64,000 nt of DNA from Streptomyces sp. LHD-70 (GTDB lineage: Bacteria > Actinomycetota > Actinomycetes > Streptomycetales > Streptomycetaceae). Of this stretch, positions 2,233-7,751 are shown one piece after another. The DNA lies in NCBI RefSeq assembly GCF_031157275.1, contig NZ_JAVIFW010000001.1:372001-436000 (forward strand), in the 5' to 3' direction. The number at the start of each line of letters is the position of its first letter. Position 1 is the first letter of the stretch. The notes under the pieces were generated by a model, which was not told the DNA's origin, did not search any database, and worked only from the letters and a program-made list of their open reading frames with translations. The position numbers and the translations under genes were made by a program.

Positions 2233-2979
2233 CTAGACCGGTCGGCCACGGCTCCACAGTTCTTCGGAGGATTCCGCGAAGCGGTCGAACATGCCGCCTG
2301 CGTCAGCCCTGCGCAGGTGCAGTAGTGGGGAGTCGTGGCCCACCAGGCGTGCCAGATGGGGCGTCACCAGGGCGTCATTGTCGAAGCGGAACGTCGAAAG
2401 CGAAACGTGATTGACAGCGTCTTCAGGGGCGCTGAACCGCACCTCGACATTATCCAGTGGGCCGAGTCGTGCCAGTTCATCCAGTGTCATACGGATACGG
2501 GTGGAGACGGTCAGCGCCACGGCTTCGATTGCTTCCCGGTCTCGCGTGGTCTGACACTCCGGGTCACCGAGCAGAACGCGGATACGGCAGCCGCCTGCGG
2601 CTTTCTCGCGAAGTGTGTCGTTGAAGTGCGGCTGTTGAGTCCAGAAGAAGTAGTTCGTGTAGCCCGCAAGGAAAGTATCCGATTTGGCGCCGGCTACCAG
2701 CTCGCCCCACAGCGTAGAGGGGGCTGCCGACCGATATGGGTACGTCCGGATGATCTCCCGATCCGCCCCCGTCTTGATGCGGTTGGTCACCGCTTGAGGC
2801 CACAGCATCTCTTCGTCCACTCCCAGTGCCCTCGCGGCGTCTATACGGCTCTGGCGGTGCGGCTGGGACTCATCGTCCAGCCAACGCTTCACCGTTTTCG
2901 GGGAAACATCGTCGCGTACGGTCGGCTCCCGAGAGGCCCCTGCCAGGACGGAGGATAACCAGACAGGCGCACGCGCCAT
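2233..2979 (-). CDS. XRE-type HTH regulator with DUF5919-like (phospholipase D-fold) C-terminal domain
   Basis: A 248-residue predicted DNA-binding protein. Residues about 1-60 (VSPKTVKRWLDDESQPHRQSRIDAARALG written in pieces: KTVKRWL, RIDAARALGV) form a helix-turn-helix. The rest (TYPYRSAAPSTLW, GCRIRVLLGDPECQ, VEVRFSAPEDAVNHVS) matches the pattern of the DUF5919 / PLD-like sensor domain found on actinobacterial regulators, without an HKD catalytic motif. The start at 2979 avoids overlap with the divergent HAD gene at 3001; an upstream in-frame start at 3096 would lie inside that gene. The region around 2580-2660 is visibly AT-richer than its neighbours. Function as a stress-linked regulator of the divergent gene is inferred. 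Confidence 0.65.
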   Translation of the reverse strand: MARAPVWLSSVLAGASREPTVRDDVSPKTVKRWLDDESQPHRQSRIDAARALGVDEEMLWPQAVTNRIKTGADREIIRTYPYRSAAPSTLWGELVAGAKSDTFLAGYTNYFFWTQQPHFNDTLREKAAGGCRIRVLLGDPECQTTRDREAIEAVALTVSTRIRMTLDELARLGPLDNVEVRFSAPEDAVNHVSLSTFRFDNDALVTPHLARLVGHDSPLLHLRRADAGGMFDRFAESSEELWSRGRPV

Positions 2980-2992
2980 GTGCCCGTAGGCT
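2962..2992 (+). promoter_or_regulatory. Candidate leaderless promoter of the HAD gene
   Basis: The -10 box TAGGCT (2987-2992) lies 8 nt before the ATG at 3001, and GACAGG at 2962-2967 is a poor -35 candidate 19 bp upstream. No Shine-Dalgarno sequence precedes the start, which fits a leaderless transcript. The divergent regulator starts only 21 nt away at 2979, so the two promoters must overlap. Confidence 0.4.
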
Positions 2993-3000
2993 GCTCCCCG

Positions 3001-3642
3001 ATGATTGAGACGATCGTGTTCGACATCGGTGAGACGCTGGTCCGGGACGACCGCTACTGGTCTCGCTGGGCAGACTGGCTCGGCGTCCCCAGGCACACGC
3101 TCGCCGCGCTCGTCGGTGCCGTCACCGCCCAGGGCCGAGACAATGCCGACGCCCTGAGGCTCGTACGTCCTGGCATCGACATCCGCGCCGAGTACGAGGC
3201 GCGTGAGGCGGCAGGGCGCGGGGAGATCCTCGAAGAGGTCGACCTGTACGACGACGTTCGGCCTGCCCTCTCGGCGCTCCGCACACTCGGCATTCGCGTC
3301 GTCGTCGCAGGAAACCAGACGCCCAGGGTCGGTGACTTGTTGCGGGCCCTCGACCTGCCCGTCGACCTGATCGCCACATCCGGCGAGTGGGGGTGCGCGA
3401 AGCCGTCGAAGCGGTTCTTCGATCGTGTACTAGACGTCTCTGCCGCGGCTCCGCACGAGACTCTCTATGTCGGCGATCACCCGGCCAACGACCTCTACCC
3501 CGCCAAGAAGGCAGGGCTCCGCGCGGCACACCTGCGACGCGGCCCATGGGGATACCTGTGGGCAGACGACCCCGAGGTGAACGCTGCGGCTGACTGGCGG
3601 ATCGACTCCCTCGATGAGCTCGCCGAGGTCTGCGCAGTCTGA
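3001..3642 (+). CDS. HAD-superfamily hydrolase-like protein with degenerate motifs I and II
   Basis: A 213-residue cytosolic HAD-fold protein. Motif I reads FDIGET (D8): the nucleophile Asp is present but the usual second Asp, the general acid/base, is Gly10. Motif II reads VVAGNQ where Ser/Thr is normally found. Motif III is the Lys in GCAKPSKRFF. Motif IV is VGDHPANDLYPAKKAG, with acidic residues intact. It may therefore be a weak phosphatase or a binding protein. The start at 3001 (MIETIVFD) is preferred over 2980 because HAD proteins begin right before motif I and a -10 box sits 8 nt upstream. It is divergent from the XRE/DUF5919 gene, with which it probably forms a unit. Confidence 0.75.
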   Translation: MIETIVFDIGETLVRDDRYWSRWADWLGVPRHTLAALVGAVTAQGRDNADALRLVRPGIDIRAEYEAREAAGRGEILEEVDLYDDVRPALSALRTLGIRVVVAGNQTPRVGDLLRALDLPVDLIATSGEWGCAKPSKRFFDRVLDVSAAAPHETLYVGDHPANDLYPAKKAGLRAAHLRRGPWGYLWADDPEVNAAADWRIDSLDELAEVCAV

Positions 3643-3695
3643 GTGTCAATGCGACCGCCACAACTGAGAGTTGGGGGTGGAGCGACCTATGAGTT

Positions 3696-3706
3696 CGGTG
3701 TGTCAC
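3696..3706. promoter_or_regulatory. Half-site CGGTGTGTCAC upstream of the XRE-TPR regulator
   Basis: These 11 bases are identical to the right arm of the perfect palindrome at 4949-4967. The site lies 44 nt before the regulator's start codon, so it is a candidate autoregulatory operator. Confidence 0.45.
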
Positions 3707-3750
3707 CGCGCCTGTACGGTTCGTGCAGGCCGCACCGAACGGAGTCCAGG

Positions 3751-4926
3751 ATGCCCGCTTCAACGATGCGCGAGGTGGGGGAGCGGGTTGCCGCTTTACG
3801 TCGTGCCCGCCGGATGACTCAGGCAGAACTCGCACGTGCTGCGTTCATGTCCCTCAGCATGCTCCGCAAGATCGAGCAAGGGAGCAGGATGCCGGGCGAT
3901 GACACCCTTGACGCCATCGCTGCCGCCTTCGGTATCGACCCGACACGCATTCTCACCGGGCAGTCACGACCCGACAGCCGGGTCCGTGACGCATTACCGG
4001 ATCTGTCCGCTGCCATCGCGGCCTACGACATGCCCGATGACGGGCCGGTCCGCTCTCCGGCCGAACTCCGAGTCGCCGTCGGGGAGGCCACAGGCTGGCG
4101 TCTGTCGGCCCAGTACACGTCCATTGCCCACCGGGTTCCAGCGCTCCTTGCCGAATTGGCCCGAGCCCTCCACATCGGCCAGGGCCACCCCGAGCCGGCA
4201 CGCCTCCTCACCACCGCCTACCGCTCCGCGGACGCTGTCGCGTACAAGTACGGGGCACACGACCTTTCCGCCCGTCTCGTCGAGCTCATGCGCTGGTCTG
4301 CCACGCAGGCCGAAGACCCTCTCTTGAACGCCACTGTTGCCTACGTGCGAGGCGAGACGTTCTTGGCCGCTCGCTCCTACCTCCCCGGGCTGCGCGCCAT
4401 GGAACGGGCACTCGACCAGATGCCGGCCCCCGTCGACGACATGGCAGCGGCTGCACGCGGCGCACTGCACATGCGTGCTGCCGTCATCGCGGGCCGAGCA
4501 GGTGATCCCGACGCCGCTGACACTCACATCGGCGAAGCGCGCACTCTTGGTGACCGGGTTCGTGAGGGCGTGTACGACGGGACTGCGTTCGGTCCGAACA
4601 GCGTCCGCATCCACCAGGTATCGGTCGCCGTAAGCCTCGGCGGCGACCACGTGCAGGGCGCACTCGACGTTGCCCGGTCATGGGTACCTCCCCGCTCCCT
4701 CCCCACCGAGCGAAGCAGCGGCTTCTACATCGAACTGGCACGTGCGCAGCTCTGGTCCGGTCTCGTAGATGACGCTTTCAAGTCACTGCAGGTAGCCCGC
4801 AGCATCGCCCCGCAGCACACCCGTGAACACCCCTGGGCACGTGAAGACGCGGCCACGCTCCGGCGGTTGAAACGAGCCGATGCCGAGTCTCTGACCAAGT
4901 TTGTCGAGTGGATCGGTGCCATCTGA
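3751..4926 (+). CDS. XRE-family transcriptional regulator with TPR-like C-terminus
   Basis: A 391-residue regulator. Residues about 5-60 are a Cro/C1-type helix-turn-helix (REVGERVAALRRARRMTQ, ELARAAFMSLSMLRKIEQG). The remaining 330 residues are alpha-helical and repetitive, as in TPR-bearing actinobacterial XRE proteins, where the repeat domain senses peptides or partner proteins. ATG 3751 is chosen because GGAG at 3741-3744 is correctly spaced and the HTH follows at once; upstream in-frame extension lacks homology-like content. The CGGTGTGTCAC half-site lies upstream of this gene and the full palindrome upstream of the following operon, so it probably controls both (inference). Confidence 0.75.
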   Translation: MPASTMREVGERVAALRRARRMTQAELARAAFMSLSMLRKIEQGSRMPGDDTLDAIAAAFGIDPTRILTGQSRPDSRVRDALPDLSAAIAAYDMPDDGPVRSPAELRVAVGEATGWRLSAQYTSIAHRVPALLAELARALHIGQGHPEPARLLTTAYRSADAVAYKYGAHDLSARLVELMRWSATQAEDPLLNATVAYVRGETFLAARSYLPGLRAMERALDQMPAPVDDMAAAARGALHMRAAVIAGRAGDPDAADTHIGEARTLGDRVREGVYDGTAFGPNSVRIHQVSVAVSLGGDHVQGALDVARSWVPPRSLPTERSSGFYIELARAQLWSGLVDDAFKSLQVARSIAPQHTREHPWAREDAATLRRLKRADAESLTKFVEWIGAI

Positions 4927-4948
4927 ACCGGGCTAGCAGGTCGAGCCG

Positions 4949-4967
4949 GTGACACACGGTGTGTCAC
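4949..4967. promoter_or_regulatory. Perfect 9-1-9 palindrome, candidate operator of the XRE-TPR regulator
   Basis: GTGACACACGGTGTGTCAC has 9-bp arms around one central base. It lies 23 nt past the regulator stop codon and 61 nt before the next gene's start at 5029. Its right arm recurs upstream of the regulator at 3696-3706. Confidence 0.55.
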
Positions 4968-5028
4968 TTGGGCCCCTCGAACGGGATCACCATCTGTCTG
5001 TCCGCACCGGCGACAGAGGGGGACGAGG

Positions 5029-5439
5029 ATGCCCGAAGCACCCGCATCATCAGCAATTCATTTCGACAGGCCTGGTGACAACGTCGACCGCGCGTCCGCG
5101 ACGACGCAGGCGTCTGCGCCGAGTCTCGTGGAGGTGCGCGCCCTCATCGGTGTCACCCAGGACGCCGGTCTTGGTGGGCGCGTACCGGCACGAGATGTGG
5201 TCCGTGCCCAGATTCGCGAGCTGTCCGGATACCTCAACGCCCTGCGTACGGCCATCGCGACGAGTGCTCGCGACCCTGCCGATCGACGACAGTTGCGGTG
5301 CGACGCCGTCGCGCTCGTGCTGCGTGCTCCGGAGCCAGACGATCCGACACTGAGACAGGTCGAGCACCTGCGGCAACTCTCCCGGATCACGGGTCAGTTC
5401 CTGGAGATCGCGCAGCGGCGAGAAGGGGAGGTTTTGTGA
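5029..5439 (+). CDS. Small hypothetical protein, possibly DUF6415-like
   Basis: A 136-residue protein of unknown function. After a low-complexity N-terminus, the body (VEVRALIGVTQDAG, AQIRELSGYLNALRTAI, LRQVEHLRQLSRITGQFLEIA) is helical and resembles the DUF6415 proteins often found beside XRE regulators and natural-product genes in Streptomyces; that match is from memory and uncertain. The start at 5029 has a purine-rich GAGGGGGACGAGG just upstream. The stop overlaps the next start by one base (TGATG at 5437-5441), which implies translational coupling. It is the first gene after the palindrome at 4949-4967. Confidence 0.55.
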   Translation: MPEAPASSAIHFDRPGDNVDRASATTQASAPSLVEVRALIGVTQDAGLGGRVPARDVVRAQIRELSGYLNALRTAIATSARDPADRRQLRCDAVALVLRAPEPDDPTLRQVEHLRQLSRITGQFLEIAQRREGEVL

Positions 5440-5621
5440 TGCCAGACCTATGCCGCCCCCGCCGAGGCCTCGCCCCGGTCCCGACCTCGATGTGGTGCCA
5501 GTTCGAGGTGCGTCTGGTCGACTATGAACCGATCGAGCACGTGCAGGCCTGCGCCCACTGCGACGACCCGGGGCACGCGCGATGCGTCTGCCCCGAGCTC
5601 CACACGGGCGGCAGCGGGTGA
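5439..5621 (+). CDS. Cysteine-rich 60-residue protein, putative zinc binder
   Basis: This short gene is translationally coupled to the preceding one (TGATG), with GGGGAGG 7 nt upstream. The protein contains a Cys near the N-terminus (PDLCRP), WCQFEV, and a C-terminal CAHCDDPGHARCVCPELH cluster. Four Cys and two His there could bind one zinc ion. No family is recognised. The 4-nt overlap with the next gene (GTGA at 5618-5621) keeps it in the same operon. A GTG directly before the ATG (5436) is an equivalent start. Confidence 0.5.
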   Translation: MPDLCRPRRGLAPVPTSMWCQFEVRLVDYEPIEHVQACAHCDDPGHARCVCPELHTGGSG

Positions 5622-5824
5622 AGGACTACCCTGCCGTGATGCTGCGGCAACTGCGGTCGCAGCGTCGCCGTCGAACCGCCCGGCGCGCCCTGCTATTGCG
5701 GGAAGCGTCCGTGGACCGCAACCGCCGCCGGAACCTCGGCGAAGCCCTCGTCACCGTCTTGCTCGTAGCCATGGTGATCGTCTCCTTCAGCGCGCTGATC
5801 TATCAGGTCGTCACACGGCCCTGA
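5618..5824 (+). CDS. Small single-pass membrane protein, 68 residues
   Basis: GTG start overlapping the previous stop by 4 nt. The N-terminal half is strongly basic (RSQRRRRTARRALLLRE, DRNRRRN). The C-terminal half is one hydrophobic helix (ALVTVLLVAMVIVSFSALIYQ) ending VVTRP, so the basic part should stay in the cytoplasm. An internal ATG at 5639 is an alternative start. No family is recognised. It closes the first sub-operon of the accessory block; the next gene begins 230 nt downstream after a hairpin. Confidence 0.5.
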   Translation: MKDYPAVMLRQLRSQRRRRTARRALLLREASVDRNRRRNLGEALVTVLLVAMVIVSFSALIYQVVTRP

Positions 5825-5927
5825 GCTCCCGGCCCGACGGCGCGTACGCCGACGTACGCCGCCCGGCCCCGGCCCCTCAACTCCCGCCTCTCCCGCCCTG
5901 AACCCGGCCGGGAAGGGAGCGGGCCCA

Positions 5928-5961
5928 ATCCCTCCGTTCCCTTGCGAGGCAACGGAGGGAT
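5928..5961 (+). terminator. Hairpin between the two halves of the accessory operon
   Basis: Arms ATCCCTCCGTT (5928-5938) and AACGGAGGGAT (5951-5961) pair perfectly over 11 bp around a 12-nt loop, with no following T-run. It could terminate the 5029-5824 transcript or act as a leader structure for the DUF397-like gene that begins 95 nt later. The rest of 5825-6056 shows no gene. Confidence 0.45.
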
Positions 5962-6056
5962 GTACCGCCGTCCGCGGGGCGGCAAACCCTCGAGGTGCCC
6001 GGCCGGCCCCTGCACGGGTGGTGCCGCGCACCGTTGACCAAAACAGGAGGAACCAC

Positions 6057-6290
6057 ATGACCGATCTGTACGCGCAGCCCCTCACGAACCTGGAGTTCCG
6101 CAAGCACTGCGGCGGCAACCTCCAGTCCGAGCACGAGTCCTGCGTCACCTACGCCCGCGCCGACGACATCGTCGTGATGCAGGACAGCAAGCCGCAGGAT
6201 GACGGCAAGGAGCTGCGCTTCACCACTCAGGAGGTTGACGACTTCGTCCTCGGCTACGCCCGCGAGCGCGGCCTGAACCTGTCCGCCTGA
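6057..6290 (+). CDS. DUF397-like small protein
   Basis: A 77-residue protein with the DUF397 pattern: LEFRKHCGGN, then an acidic ESCV stretch, VMQDSKPQDDGKELRFT and a C-terminal helix EVDDFVLGYARERG. DUF397 proteins usually sit next to XRE regulators in Streptomyces and are thought to modulate them. An XRE regulator is indeed about 1.1 kb upstream. The start at 6057 has a strong AGGAGG (6045-6050). It leads a three-gene run with the 160-residue protein at 6352 and the oxygenase at 6846. Confidence 0.7.
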   Translation: MTDLYAQPLTNLEFRKHCGGNLQSEHESCVTYARADDIVVMQDSKPQDDGKELRFTTQEVDDFVLGYARERGLNLSA

Positions 6291-6351
6291 TCGCTCGACC
6301 ATGCCCGGCCGTGCGGATGCGGCCGGGCACCCCTCAGGGGAGAACCCGCCC

Positions 6352-6834
6352 GTGAACAACACCTACGACCACCAGTCATGGCCCAACAACGCTCCATGGC
6401 AGGGGCACTGGCACGGCTTCGGCCCCTGGGTCGGCGACGGCAAGTCGTACGCGAACGAAGCCGTCCGCCGTCCTGCGGACCTGAGCGGGGCGCACGTCGA
6501 GTTCATCCAGTCCCGCGTCCCGCCACTGATGACGGGGCTCTGGCTGATGCGCCCGGCCCAGGCCGTCAGGGAGCGCACCTGGACCCACGTGGGCGATGCC
6601 ATCGCCTGGCTCACCGACACCTACAAGCAGCACCCGCCCCTCGAAAGCCCCGACGGCGCGACCGCCTACGTCGGCCACGAGGTGAAGACCGCCTACGCGC
6701 GGGACGCCCTGCCGCGCGGTGTCGACGTCGTGTGGGCCTACTGGCTGCGCGGGCAGACCATCGCGTCGTATGCCGTGGTCTGCTGCCCGAACTTCTTCCA
6801 CAAGTCCCTGCCCTGCCCCTGCCCGCCGAACTGA
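6352..6834 (+). CDS. Unrecognised 160-residue protein with C-terminal cysteine cluster
   Basis: I do not recognise a family. The N-terminus is rich in Trp, His and Gly (HQSWPNNAPWQGHWHGFGPW). The middle is an ordinary mixed helix/strand domain. The tail AVVCCPNFFHKSLPCPCPPN ends with four Cys and several Pro. The GTG at 6352 follows GGGGAG (6338-6343). The next gene, a JmjC-type oxygenase, starts 11 nt after this stop, so the two proteins are probably made together. Possible roles are a partner or substrate of the oxygenase, or a metal-binding protein; neither is shown by sequence. Confidence 0.55.
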   Translation: MNNTYDHQSWPNNAPWQGHWHGFGPWVGDGKSYANEAVRRPADLSGAHVEFIQSRVPPLMTGLWLMRPAQAVRERTWTHVGDAIAWLTDTYKQHPPLESPDGATAYVGHEVKTAYARDALPRGVDVVWAYWLRGQTIASYAVVCCPNFFHKSLPCPCPPN

Positions 6835-6845
6835 CGGAGGAACGA

Positions 6846-7751
6846 GTGTCGCTCGCTGTGATCCTGCCCGAACACGGGGCAACGGAGTTACGGACCCGAT
6901 GGCCCGACGAACCACGCCTGTACGAGCGCCGACCCGGCGAGCTGGAGGCAAACGTCAGCGCGGCCATGCTGAACGACCACATCACCACCGGGTGCCTTCC
7001 GGCCGCTGAACTCGCCGCCGTGAAAGCCCCGAACCCGTCGCTGAACCCCAAGGCGTTCATGGACGACTACGGACGCACCGACGCCGCCAAACTCCAGCGC
7101 CTGATGGAGCAGGGCTTCACCCTCCGGATCGGGAACCTCCAGCGCATCATCCCGTATCTGGCGAAGCTGTCGAAGGCCATCCAGTACGAGACTGGCTACT
7201 CGAACTACATCCACGCCTTCCTCACTCCGGGCGGGCAGCAAGGGCTGCGCCACCACTGGGATCAGCAGATGGCCGTGATCGTCCAGCTGGCCGGCGTCAA
7301 GCGCTGGCACCTCTGGCGTCCGACCGTCGAGGCCCCGATGCGCACGCACAACGAGTCCTTCCGCGTCTGGAAGAGCGGCTACATCGACAACTGGGAATCG
7401 GCCGGACCTGACCTGTCCTTCGACCTGAAGGCCGGCCAGTCACTCCTCGTCCCGCGTGGCTGGGTCCACAACCCTCACGTGCCGGAGGGGTTCGGGCCGA
7501 GCGTGCATCTCACGTTCGCCATCCGGGAGCGCACCCCGATCTGGCTCGCTGAACAACTCATCGCCTCCGCGATCGAGGACCCGGAGCTGCGGCGCATCGT
7601 CCGACCTGAGGAGCTCTGCGGACCGGCGCTCACCCGACAGCTCTCTGCCGTACGGCGGGTGCTCATTGCGTACCTCGAACGTCTCGATCCCAAGGTGCTC
7701 ACGGAAACGGTCAGGGAAGCGGCCCTGACCGACCTGGAATACGTCACCTGA
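6846..7751 (+). CDS. JmjC/cupin-type Fe(II)/2-oxoglutarate oxygenase
   Basis: A 301-residue protein related to the cupin_4 / ribosomal-oxygenase branch of JmjC enzymes, which hydroxylate protein side chains using iron and 2-oxoglutarate. The double-stranded beta-helix core shows the facial triad: H137 and D139 in LRHHWDQQMAVIVQLAG and H208 in LVPRGWVHNPHV. KRWHLWRP after the first motif is typical of the family. The C-terminus after about 230 is helical, as in dimerising or winged-helix tails. GTG 6846 has GGAGG 5 nt upstream and lies 11 nt past the preceding stop. The substrate is unknown; the adjacent small proteins are candidates. Confidence 0.75.
   Translation: MSLAVILPEHGATELRTRWPDEPRLYERRPGELEANVSAAMLNDHITTGCLPAAELAAVKAPNPSLNPKAFMDDYGRTDAAKLQRLMEQGFTLRIGNLQRIIPYLAKLSKAIQYETGYSNYIHAFLTPGGQQGLRHHWDQQMAVIVQLAGVKRWHLWRPTVEAPMRTHNESFRVWKSGYIDNWESAGPDLSFDLKAGQSLLVPRGWVHNPHVPEGFGPSVHLTFAIRERTPIWLAEQLIASAIEDPELRRIVRPEELCGPALTRQLSAVRRVLIAYLERLDPKVLTETVREAALTDLEYVT

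Follow-up and report, generated by a model that had tools for sequence, protein, structure and literature searches.

A recurrent gene unit of a DUF397-like protein, p160 and a JmjC-type oxygenase near XRE regulators in Streptomyces

Gene content of the locus

A 64,000-nucleotide stretch of the Streptomyces sp. LHD-70 genome (assembly GCF_031157275.1, contig NZ_JAVIFW010000001.1, positions 372,001 to 436,000; hereafter the window) contains a row of genes ending in a JmjC-type oxygenase, which the original prediction put forward as a possible undescribed system of seven reading frames. All seven frames are present on the + strand where they had been placed (coordinates below are positions in the window). 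The last three, on which this report centers, encode a DUF397-like protein (6057-6290), an unnamed 160-residue protein that we call p160 (6352-6834) and a 301-residue JmjC_2 oxygenase (6846-7751) that begins with a GTG start codon after GGAGG, 11 nucleotides (nt) beyond p160.

Four further genes lie upstream. The regulator (3751-4926, with an alternative longer frame from a GTG start at 3643) matches Pfam HTH_3 (4.2e-11), and PHROG 5823 (transcriptional regulator) covers nearly all of it (8.7e-81); its previous label was XRE-TPR, and Pfam returned no TPR family match for the C-terminal part. It is followed by a DUF6415-like small protein (5029-5439; Pfam DUF6415 at E 0.018, under the cut-off), a Cys-rich 60-residue protein (5439-5621) and a 68-residue protein with one hydrophobic stretch, which by eye would make it a single-pass membrane protein (5618-5824). 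Nothing above cut-off was found for the p160, Cys-rich and membrane proteins in the libraries tried (Pfam, NCBIfam and PHROGs for all three; PADLOC for p160 and the membrane protein).

These genes had been described as one rightward run. The shared strand bears this out, but a single transcript is not required: a 232-nt gap containing an inverted repeat (5928-5961, with 15-nt arms at 5928-5942 and 5947-5961) separates the membrane protein gene from the DUF397-like gene. Because of this gap, the core of DUF397-like, p160 and JmjC genes may have its own transcript in the window. The core genes themselves are predicted to be co-transcribed.

A three-gene core recurs across genomes

An oxygenase search of genome contigs yielded 32 related loci, from Streptomyces, Micromonospora (three) and one other Micromonosporaceae record, with oxygenases 51-68% identical to that of the window (best segment). 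In 31 of the 32, the oxygenase is immediately preceded by DUF397-like and p160 genes in the same order, and the remaining locus (L031) is on a contig that starts 68 bases before the oxygenase. The proposal that these three genes stay together across species and families is thus well supported, and the opposite pattern, an oxygenase nearly always found without the small genes, fails for the DUF397-like and p160 genes. A Streptomyces plasmid carries a copy annotated in the order DUF6415, DUF397, hypothetical, cupin, and the window's own genome holds a second copy of the set, with a 63% identical oxygenase. Pairwise distances of the three core proteins correlate across 29 of 33 loci (r 0.65, 0.76 and 0.80; Mantel 0/2000 each). 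The four loci dropped from that comparison (L027, L033, L034 and L035) carry an oxygenase gene whose frame is broken or shifted, through either assembly error or decay.

In wider surveys the oxygenase profile (E<=1e-30) reached 4 of 394 genomes of the class, three of them in the same genus (the genome of the window included), and p160 (1e-8) reached 3 of 296 genomes of the phylum, all in the same genus.

Neighborhoods were compared in 34 loci (the window, the plasmid, the genome's own second copy and 31 contigs, with L031 left out), using profiles built from these loci themselves and a Pfam check for L008 only. An XRE gene occurs within 4.5 kb upstream of the core in 30 of the 34, in line with the predicted association of this regulator with the core; none was seen within that distance in L021, L030, L033 and L035. 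The regulator is of the window type in 10 loci and of the DUF5753 type in 21, one of these having both, and is thus interchangeable. Within the same distance, 17 of 34 loci have a DUF6879-type gene and 17 of 34 a standard DUF397 gene.

The other upstream genes are less constant. Of 10 upstream genes from relatives put to Pfam, four clearly matched DUF6415 (in L022, L023, L024 and L076, ahead of the DUF397-like gene; 1.1e-11 to 7.4e-23) and two did so weakly; a DUF6415-type gene, claimed as part of the cassette, was thus seen in only some related loci. The Cys-rich and membrane proteins, also counted as cassette parts, have no homologue in related loci at E<=0.01, the best matches at looser settings being E 0.073 and 0.41, respectively. 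The whole seven-gene cassette is therefore ruled out as a conserved unit. The variation in XRE type, together with the lack of conservation of the Cys-rich and membrane genes, argues that the conserved unit, as judged from gene neighborhoods, is DUF397-like, p160 and JmjC with an exchangeable XRE neighbor.

Properties of the core proteins

The oxygenase matches Pfam JmjC_2 (PF08007) with 54.8 bits against a cut-off of 22 (E 8.5e-15) and PHROG 8014, a family of unknown function, at 1.7e-13; as to the C-terminal dimerization and winged-helix domains of NO66/MINA-type ribosomal oxygenases, the Pfam scan gave only a SelB-wing match under the cut-off (E 0.039). Its best relatives in the PDB by sequence are the JmjC_2 proteins NO66 (6.6e-15) and MINA (8.3e-14), and YxbC also matches. 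The likeness to these proteins is one of the catalytic core. All 21 aligned sequences, that of the window among them, share H137, D139 and H208 (HxD...H) without exception; these residues line up with their counterparts in NO66, where they bind iron. The enzyme of the window is shorter than the listed NO66 and MINA chains (301 residues versus 442-489) and, unlike NO66, MINA and YxbC, is gene-linked to a DUF397-like protein.

The DUF397-like protein of the window scores 23.7 bits against Pfam DUF397 (PF04149; 5.4e-05), just under the cut-off of 24, and the relative in L008 scores 35.4 bits; 23 of 24 aligned members, window included, match DUF397 at E<=0.01. DUF397 has been described as four strands and a C-terminal helix with CxE and RDS motifs (PMC7159879), and the predicted model (predicted local distance difference test score, pLDDT, 88.4) has four strands followed by a helix at residues 57-71, as in that description. 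As to the motifs, C29 and D43 are invariant in all 24 sequences, with E at +2 in only 10 and R before D in 15; the window copy reads CVT and QDS. The model matched no PDB structure at E<=0.001, and the alignment matched no PDB sequence at E<=1.

We found p160 matches in 47 of 200 Streptomycetaceae genomes at E<=0.001. Members are about 140-190 residues long and conserved at both ends. In an alignment of 51 members, drawn from loci with a detected oxygenase as well as from loci where none was detected, H19, H21, C145 and C155 (window numbering) never vary except by gaps (50/50, 50/50, 51/51 and 50/50), a two-His, two-Cys pattern that, judged from conservation, would suit a metal site. The AlphaFold model is fair (pLDDT 79.9) and has no convincing match to a solved fold. 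Foldseek gave none at E<=0.001, and a VIA-align comparison with 628 chains had a best Z of 2.1, results that show neither a novel fold nor its absence. A PDB sequence search with the alignment gave one match at E 0.28. Outside the two main families, a p160-like stretch of 40% identity with no gene listed lies at L077:6001-6381 in Nonomuraea gerenzanensis.

We also fetched 20 p160 loci (L056-L075) that had no adjacent match in the oxygenase search. On inspection no oxygenase was seen in any of the 20, nor a remnant by tblastn, though one contig stops at p160. Upstream of p160, a DUF397-like gene was found in 13 and a standard DUF397 gene in one; neither was detected in six. These loci often lie near XRE-DUF5753 and DUF6879 genes. 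Since p160 and the oxygenase each occur without the other being detected, p160 is disfavored as an obligate substrate of the oxygenase. The HxH of p160 is likewise disfavored as a hydroxylation site because both His residues are kept in relatives without a detected oxygenase.

DUF397-like genes accompany three oxygenase layouts

A search of 200 Streptomycetaceae genomes with the oxygenase profile (E<=1e-20) returned 52 matches in 43 genomes. A same-strand DUF397-like gene lies no more than 1.3 kb upstream in all of the best 16 (E<=3.1e-47), counted with a DUF397 profile built from these loci, and in 31 of the 52 when counted with an iterated profile (one of the 52 had fewer than 600 bases to search). 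DUF397/BldB proteins are abundant in Streptomyces. Given the 25 Pfam DUF397 matches in the 8.5-Mb genome of the window (at most about 31 candidates were scored per genome), we estimate that a chance DUF397 neighbor in a given 1.3-kb upstream stretch has a probability well under 1%.

Three layouts can be told apart. Type I is the DUF397-like, p160, JmjC order of the window. Type II consists of DUF397-like and JmjC genes, which in L044, L046, L047 and L049 are followed by a weaker p160 match; p160 was not detected in L042, L043 and L045, and the DUF397-like gene is kept there. Type III pairs JmjC with a divergent DUF397-like gene. Pfam placed three of the four type III copies tested above the DUF397 cut-off; the fourth, like one type II copy, has no Pfam match and rests on the iterated profile. 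Among 18 loci inspected by eye, 8 have a small CxxC/CxxC protein downstream and 6 a protein of 101-104 residues, one of which, put to Pfam, matched DUF6087 (2.9e-31). Most loci in which the small CxxC gene replaces p160 keep the DUF397-like gene, and L122 has the CxxC gene without a detected DUF397-like gene. Because JmjC loci without detected p160 and most CxxC loci retain it, the DUF397-like protein is the partner common to all three layouts. A recurrent cluster of divergent DUF397-like gene, JmjC gene and CxxC/CxxC protein gene, sometimes with the 101-104 residue DUF6087-type protein, is seen in L051, L053 and L112-L122.

A two-hairpin leader precedes the core in many relatives

In many relatives, two conserved hairpins and then a ribosome-binding site lie upstream of the DUF397-like start. 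Across 80 sources (958 kb), a covariance model made from 12 leaders matched 29 sites at E<=0.5, including L016:5021-5149, L010:5035-5165, L028:5058-5173 and 26 more. Seventeen are non-seeds, some of them near-copies of seeds. Directly downstream of 28 of the 29 is a DUF397-like gene, and the match in L073 precedes p160 with no DUF397-like gene detected. The leader is present in 23 of 34 type I loci. The window lacks it (no convincing match, best 7.6 bits), and the window's inverted repeat at 5928-5961 differs from it.

Initial consensus folding of the leader alignments gave weak structures. In the alignment from the covariance model 95.0% of cells pair, versus 43.5-63.1% when the alignment is slid, and there are 14 double changes versus 4.2 in shuffles; a weaker control, further pair types, gave 10 versus 8.4, a value reached by 34 of 500 shuffles. 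The structure used for the covariance model, R1, omitted the first helix, so that the pair counts of this helix are not model-fitted, but the second helix's counts may be. The leader could be a leader RNA or a set of paired DNA operator sites, and RNA is favored because the loop length varies. The core operon in many relatives may be gated by a structured leader RNA. Rfam returned no match in the window stretch and only RNase P in the four relative loci searched, with no match to the leader.

Relation to characterized systems

The locus resembles the WhiJ-BldB and Scr1/Scr2 loci, in which an XRE (DUF5753) gene stands beside small DUF397 proteins. XRE-DUF397 pairs act as regulators (PMC10364602). 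BldB, a DUF397 protein, is described as a key developmental regulator of obscure biochemical function; it forms hetero-oligomers and apparently does not bind DNA, and its loss affects iosA only if the XRE protein WhiJ9 is present (PMC10294661). The DUF5753-type XRE, DUF6879-type and standard DUF397 genes counted above are shared with WhiJ-BldB loci; the differences are the extra, divergent DUF397-like gene in an operon-like row with p160 and JmjC and, in the window, an XRE protein with no DUF5753 match. We regard the locus as a variant of XRE-DUF397 loci. IosA, described as an uncharacterized 15-kDa sporulation inhibitor of no known fold encoded beside whiJ9-bldB9 (PMC10294661), recalls p160, which often lies beside WhiJ/BldB-type genes; this likeness is one of description.

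BipG, a JmjC enzyme encoded in a streptomycete cluster, is reported to hydroxylate ornithine in a genetically linked peptide during biphenomycin biosynthesis (PMC12707348). The comparison is again by description, and the annotated neighbors of the plasmid relative include none named as a precursor peptide, MNIO or radical SAM gene. A full-text search of open-licence literature found no paper with DUF397 and JmjC together, and for XRE, DUF397 and cupin together the sole mention of cupin was in a reference title.

Possible function of the unit

The explanation that we find best, with a probability of roughly 0.4, is that the oxygenase hydroxylates its DUF397-like partner, the predicted substrate, and so tunes an XRE/BldB-type switch. 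The three-gene operon would consist of a DUF397-like adaptor or regulator, p160, possibly metal-binding, and the JmjC oxygenase, and the nearby exchangeable XRE protein probably controls it. The oxygenase would most likely act on a product of its own operon; the DUF397-like protein, being common to the three layouts, is the first candidate and the one most likely to serve as substrate or docking partner. Hydroxylation would then change the pairing of this BldB-type protein with other DUF397 or XRE proteins, and that change could couple a developmental or antibiotic switch to the status of O2, Fe(II) and 2-oxoglutarate. The most extended form of this idea is doubtful as a whole: a bacterial switch of the oxygen-sensing type in which a DUF397 protein of the BldB type is hydroxylated by JmjC, p160 joins in as a metal-binding third component, oxygen, iron or 2-oxoglutarate status sets XRE-controlled development or antibiotic production, and many relatives are perhaps gated by a leader RNA.

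Several observations weigh against hydroxylation of the DUF397-like protein. The upstream DUF397-like gene was not detected in 21 of the 52 JmjC matches, the window XRE lacks the DUF5753 match in Pfam that a WhiJ-type pair would have, and the correlated distances of the core proteins may come from shared descent alone. Most of the invariant residues are also retained in DUF397-like proteins that have p160 as their only partner, and three unpaired copies, the ones closest to this type (L056-L058), resemble oxygenase-paired ones, so that no obvious target residue marks the oxygenase-paired proteins. The C-terminal segment was considered as such a mark, being ELDAAGIDPARF-like in nine copies without a detected oxygenase and ELDxFA.GW-like in paired ones in a comparison that left out L056-L058; it was set aside since the nine may share a single lineage and L056-L058, although unpaired, look like paired copies.

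An alternative that we consider unlikely is a pathway resembling that of ribosomally synthesized and post-translationally modified peptides (RiPPs), in which the oxygenase, with the DUF397-like protein as adaptor, would tailor p160 or a peptide cut out of it into a secreted or signaling product. The conserved ends of p160 would fit, bacterial homologues of JmjC (PF08007) proteins fused to RiPP recognition elements (RREs) are reported in RiPP-like contexts (PMC12710340), and DUF397 and DUF5753 genes may accompany some graspetide clusters (PMC13097080). However, the conservation, length and fairly confidently modeled structure of p160 (pLDDT 79.9) are unlike those of a short variable precursor, no oxygenase was seen in the 20 inspected p160 loci and JmjC is also found without detected p160. 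The 17 annotated features of the plasmid relative, an incomplete table, include none named as a protease or transporter, and no search dedicated to RREs or precursors was made.

NO66 and MINA hydroxylate ribosomal proteins, and as the nearest solved structures by sequence they invite the reading that the enzyme is a specialized ribosomal oxygenase that the small genes only regulate. We regard this as quite improbable, since the tight linkage to DUF397-like and p160 genes would be unexpected for a housekeeping ribosomal enzyme; other JmjC genes, given the 21 matches without a detected DUF397-like neighbor, could serve the ribosome instead. Very improbable, in our assessment, is a toxin-antitoxin or phage-defense unit on mobile DNA. 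XRE-DUF397 pairs have been predicted as toxin-antitoxin systems (PMC2701414), and the patchy distribution and plasmid copy would suit a mobile unit, but 14 overexpressed DUF397 proteins are reported to have shown no clear toxicity (PMC10364602) and among the non-XRE proteins put to PADLOC, a set without the Cys-rich protein, none had a match at E<=0.01.

The repeated pairing of a dedicated protein-hydroxylase-type enzyme with DUF397 would make hydroxylation control of DUF397 proteins a testable idea, and the locus also points to p160 as a recurrent orphan family and to a candidate leader RNA. The recurrent unit suggests a previously undescribed tie between oxygen-dependent protein modification and bacterial development or antibiotic control.

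Neighboring features

An RNase P RNA gene lies a few hundred bases from the operon in two relatives (L008:7183-7587 and L010:7286-7686), hinting at a common insertion neighborhood. Upstream of the regulator in the window is a HAD-family hydrolase (3001-3642, by Pfam), and beside it on the - strand is a frame (2233-3096) that we take to resemble a helix-turn-helix and phospholipase-D-like protein.

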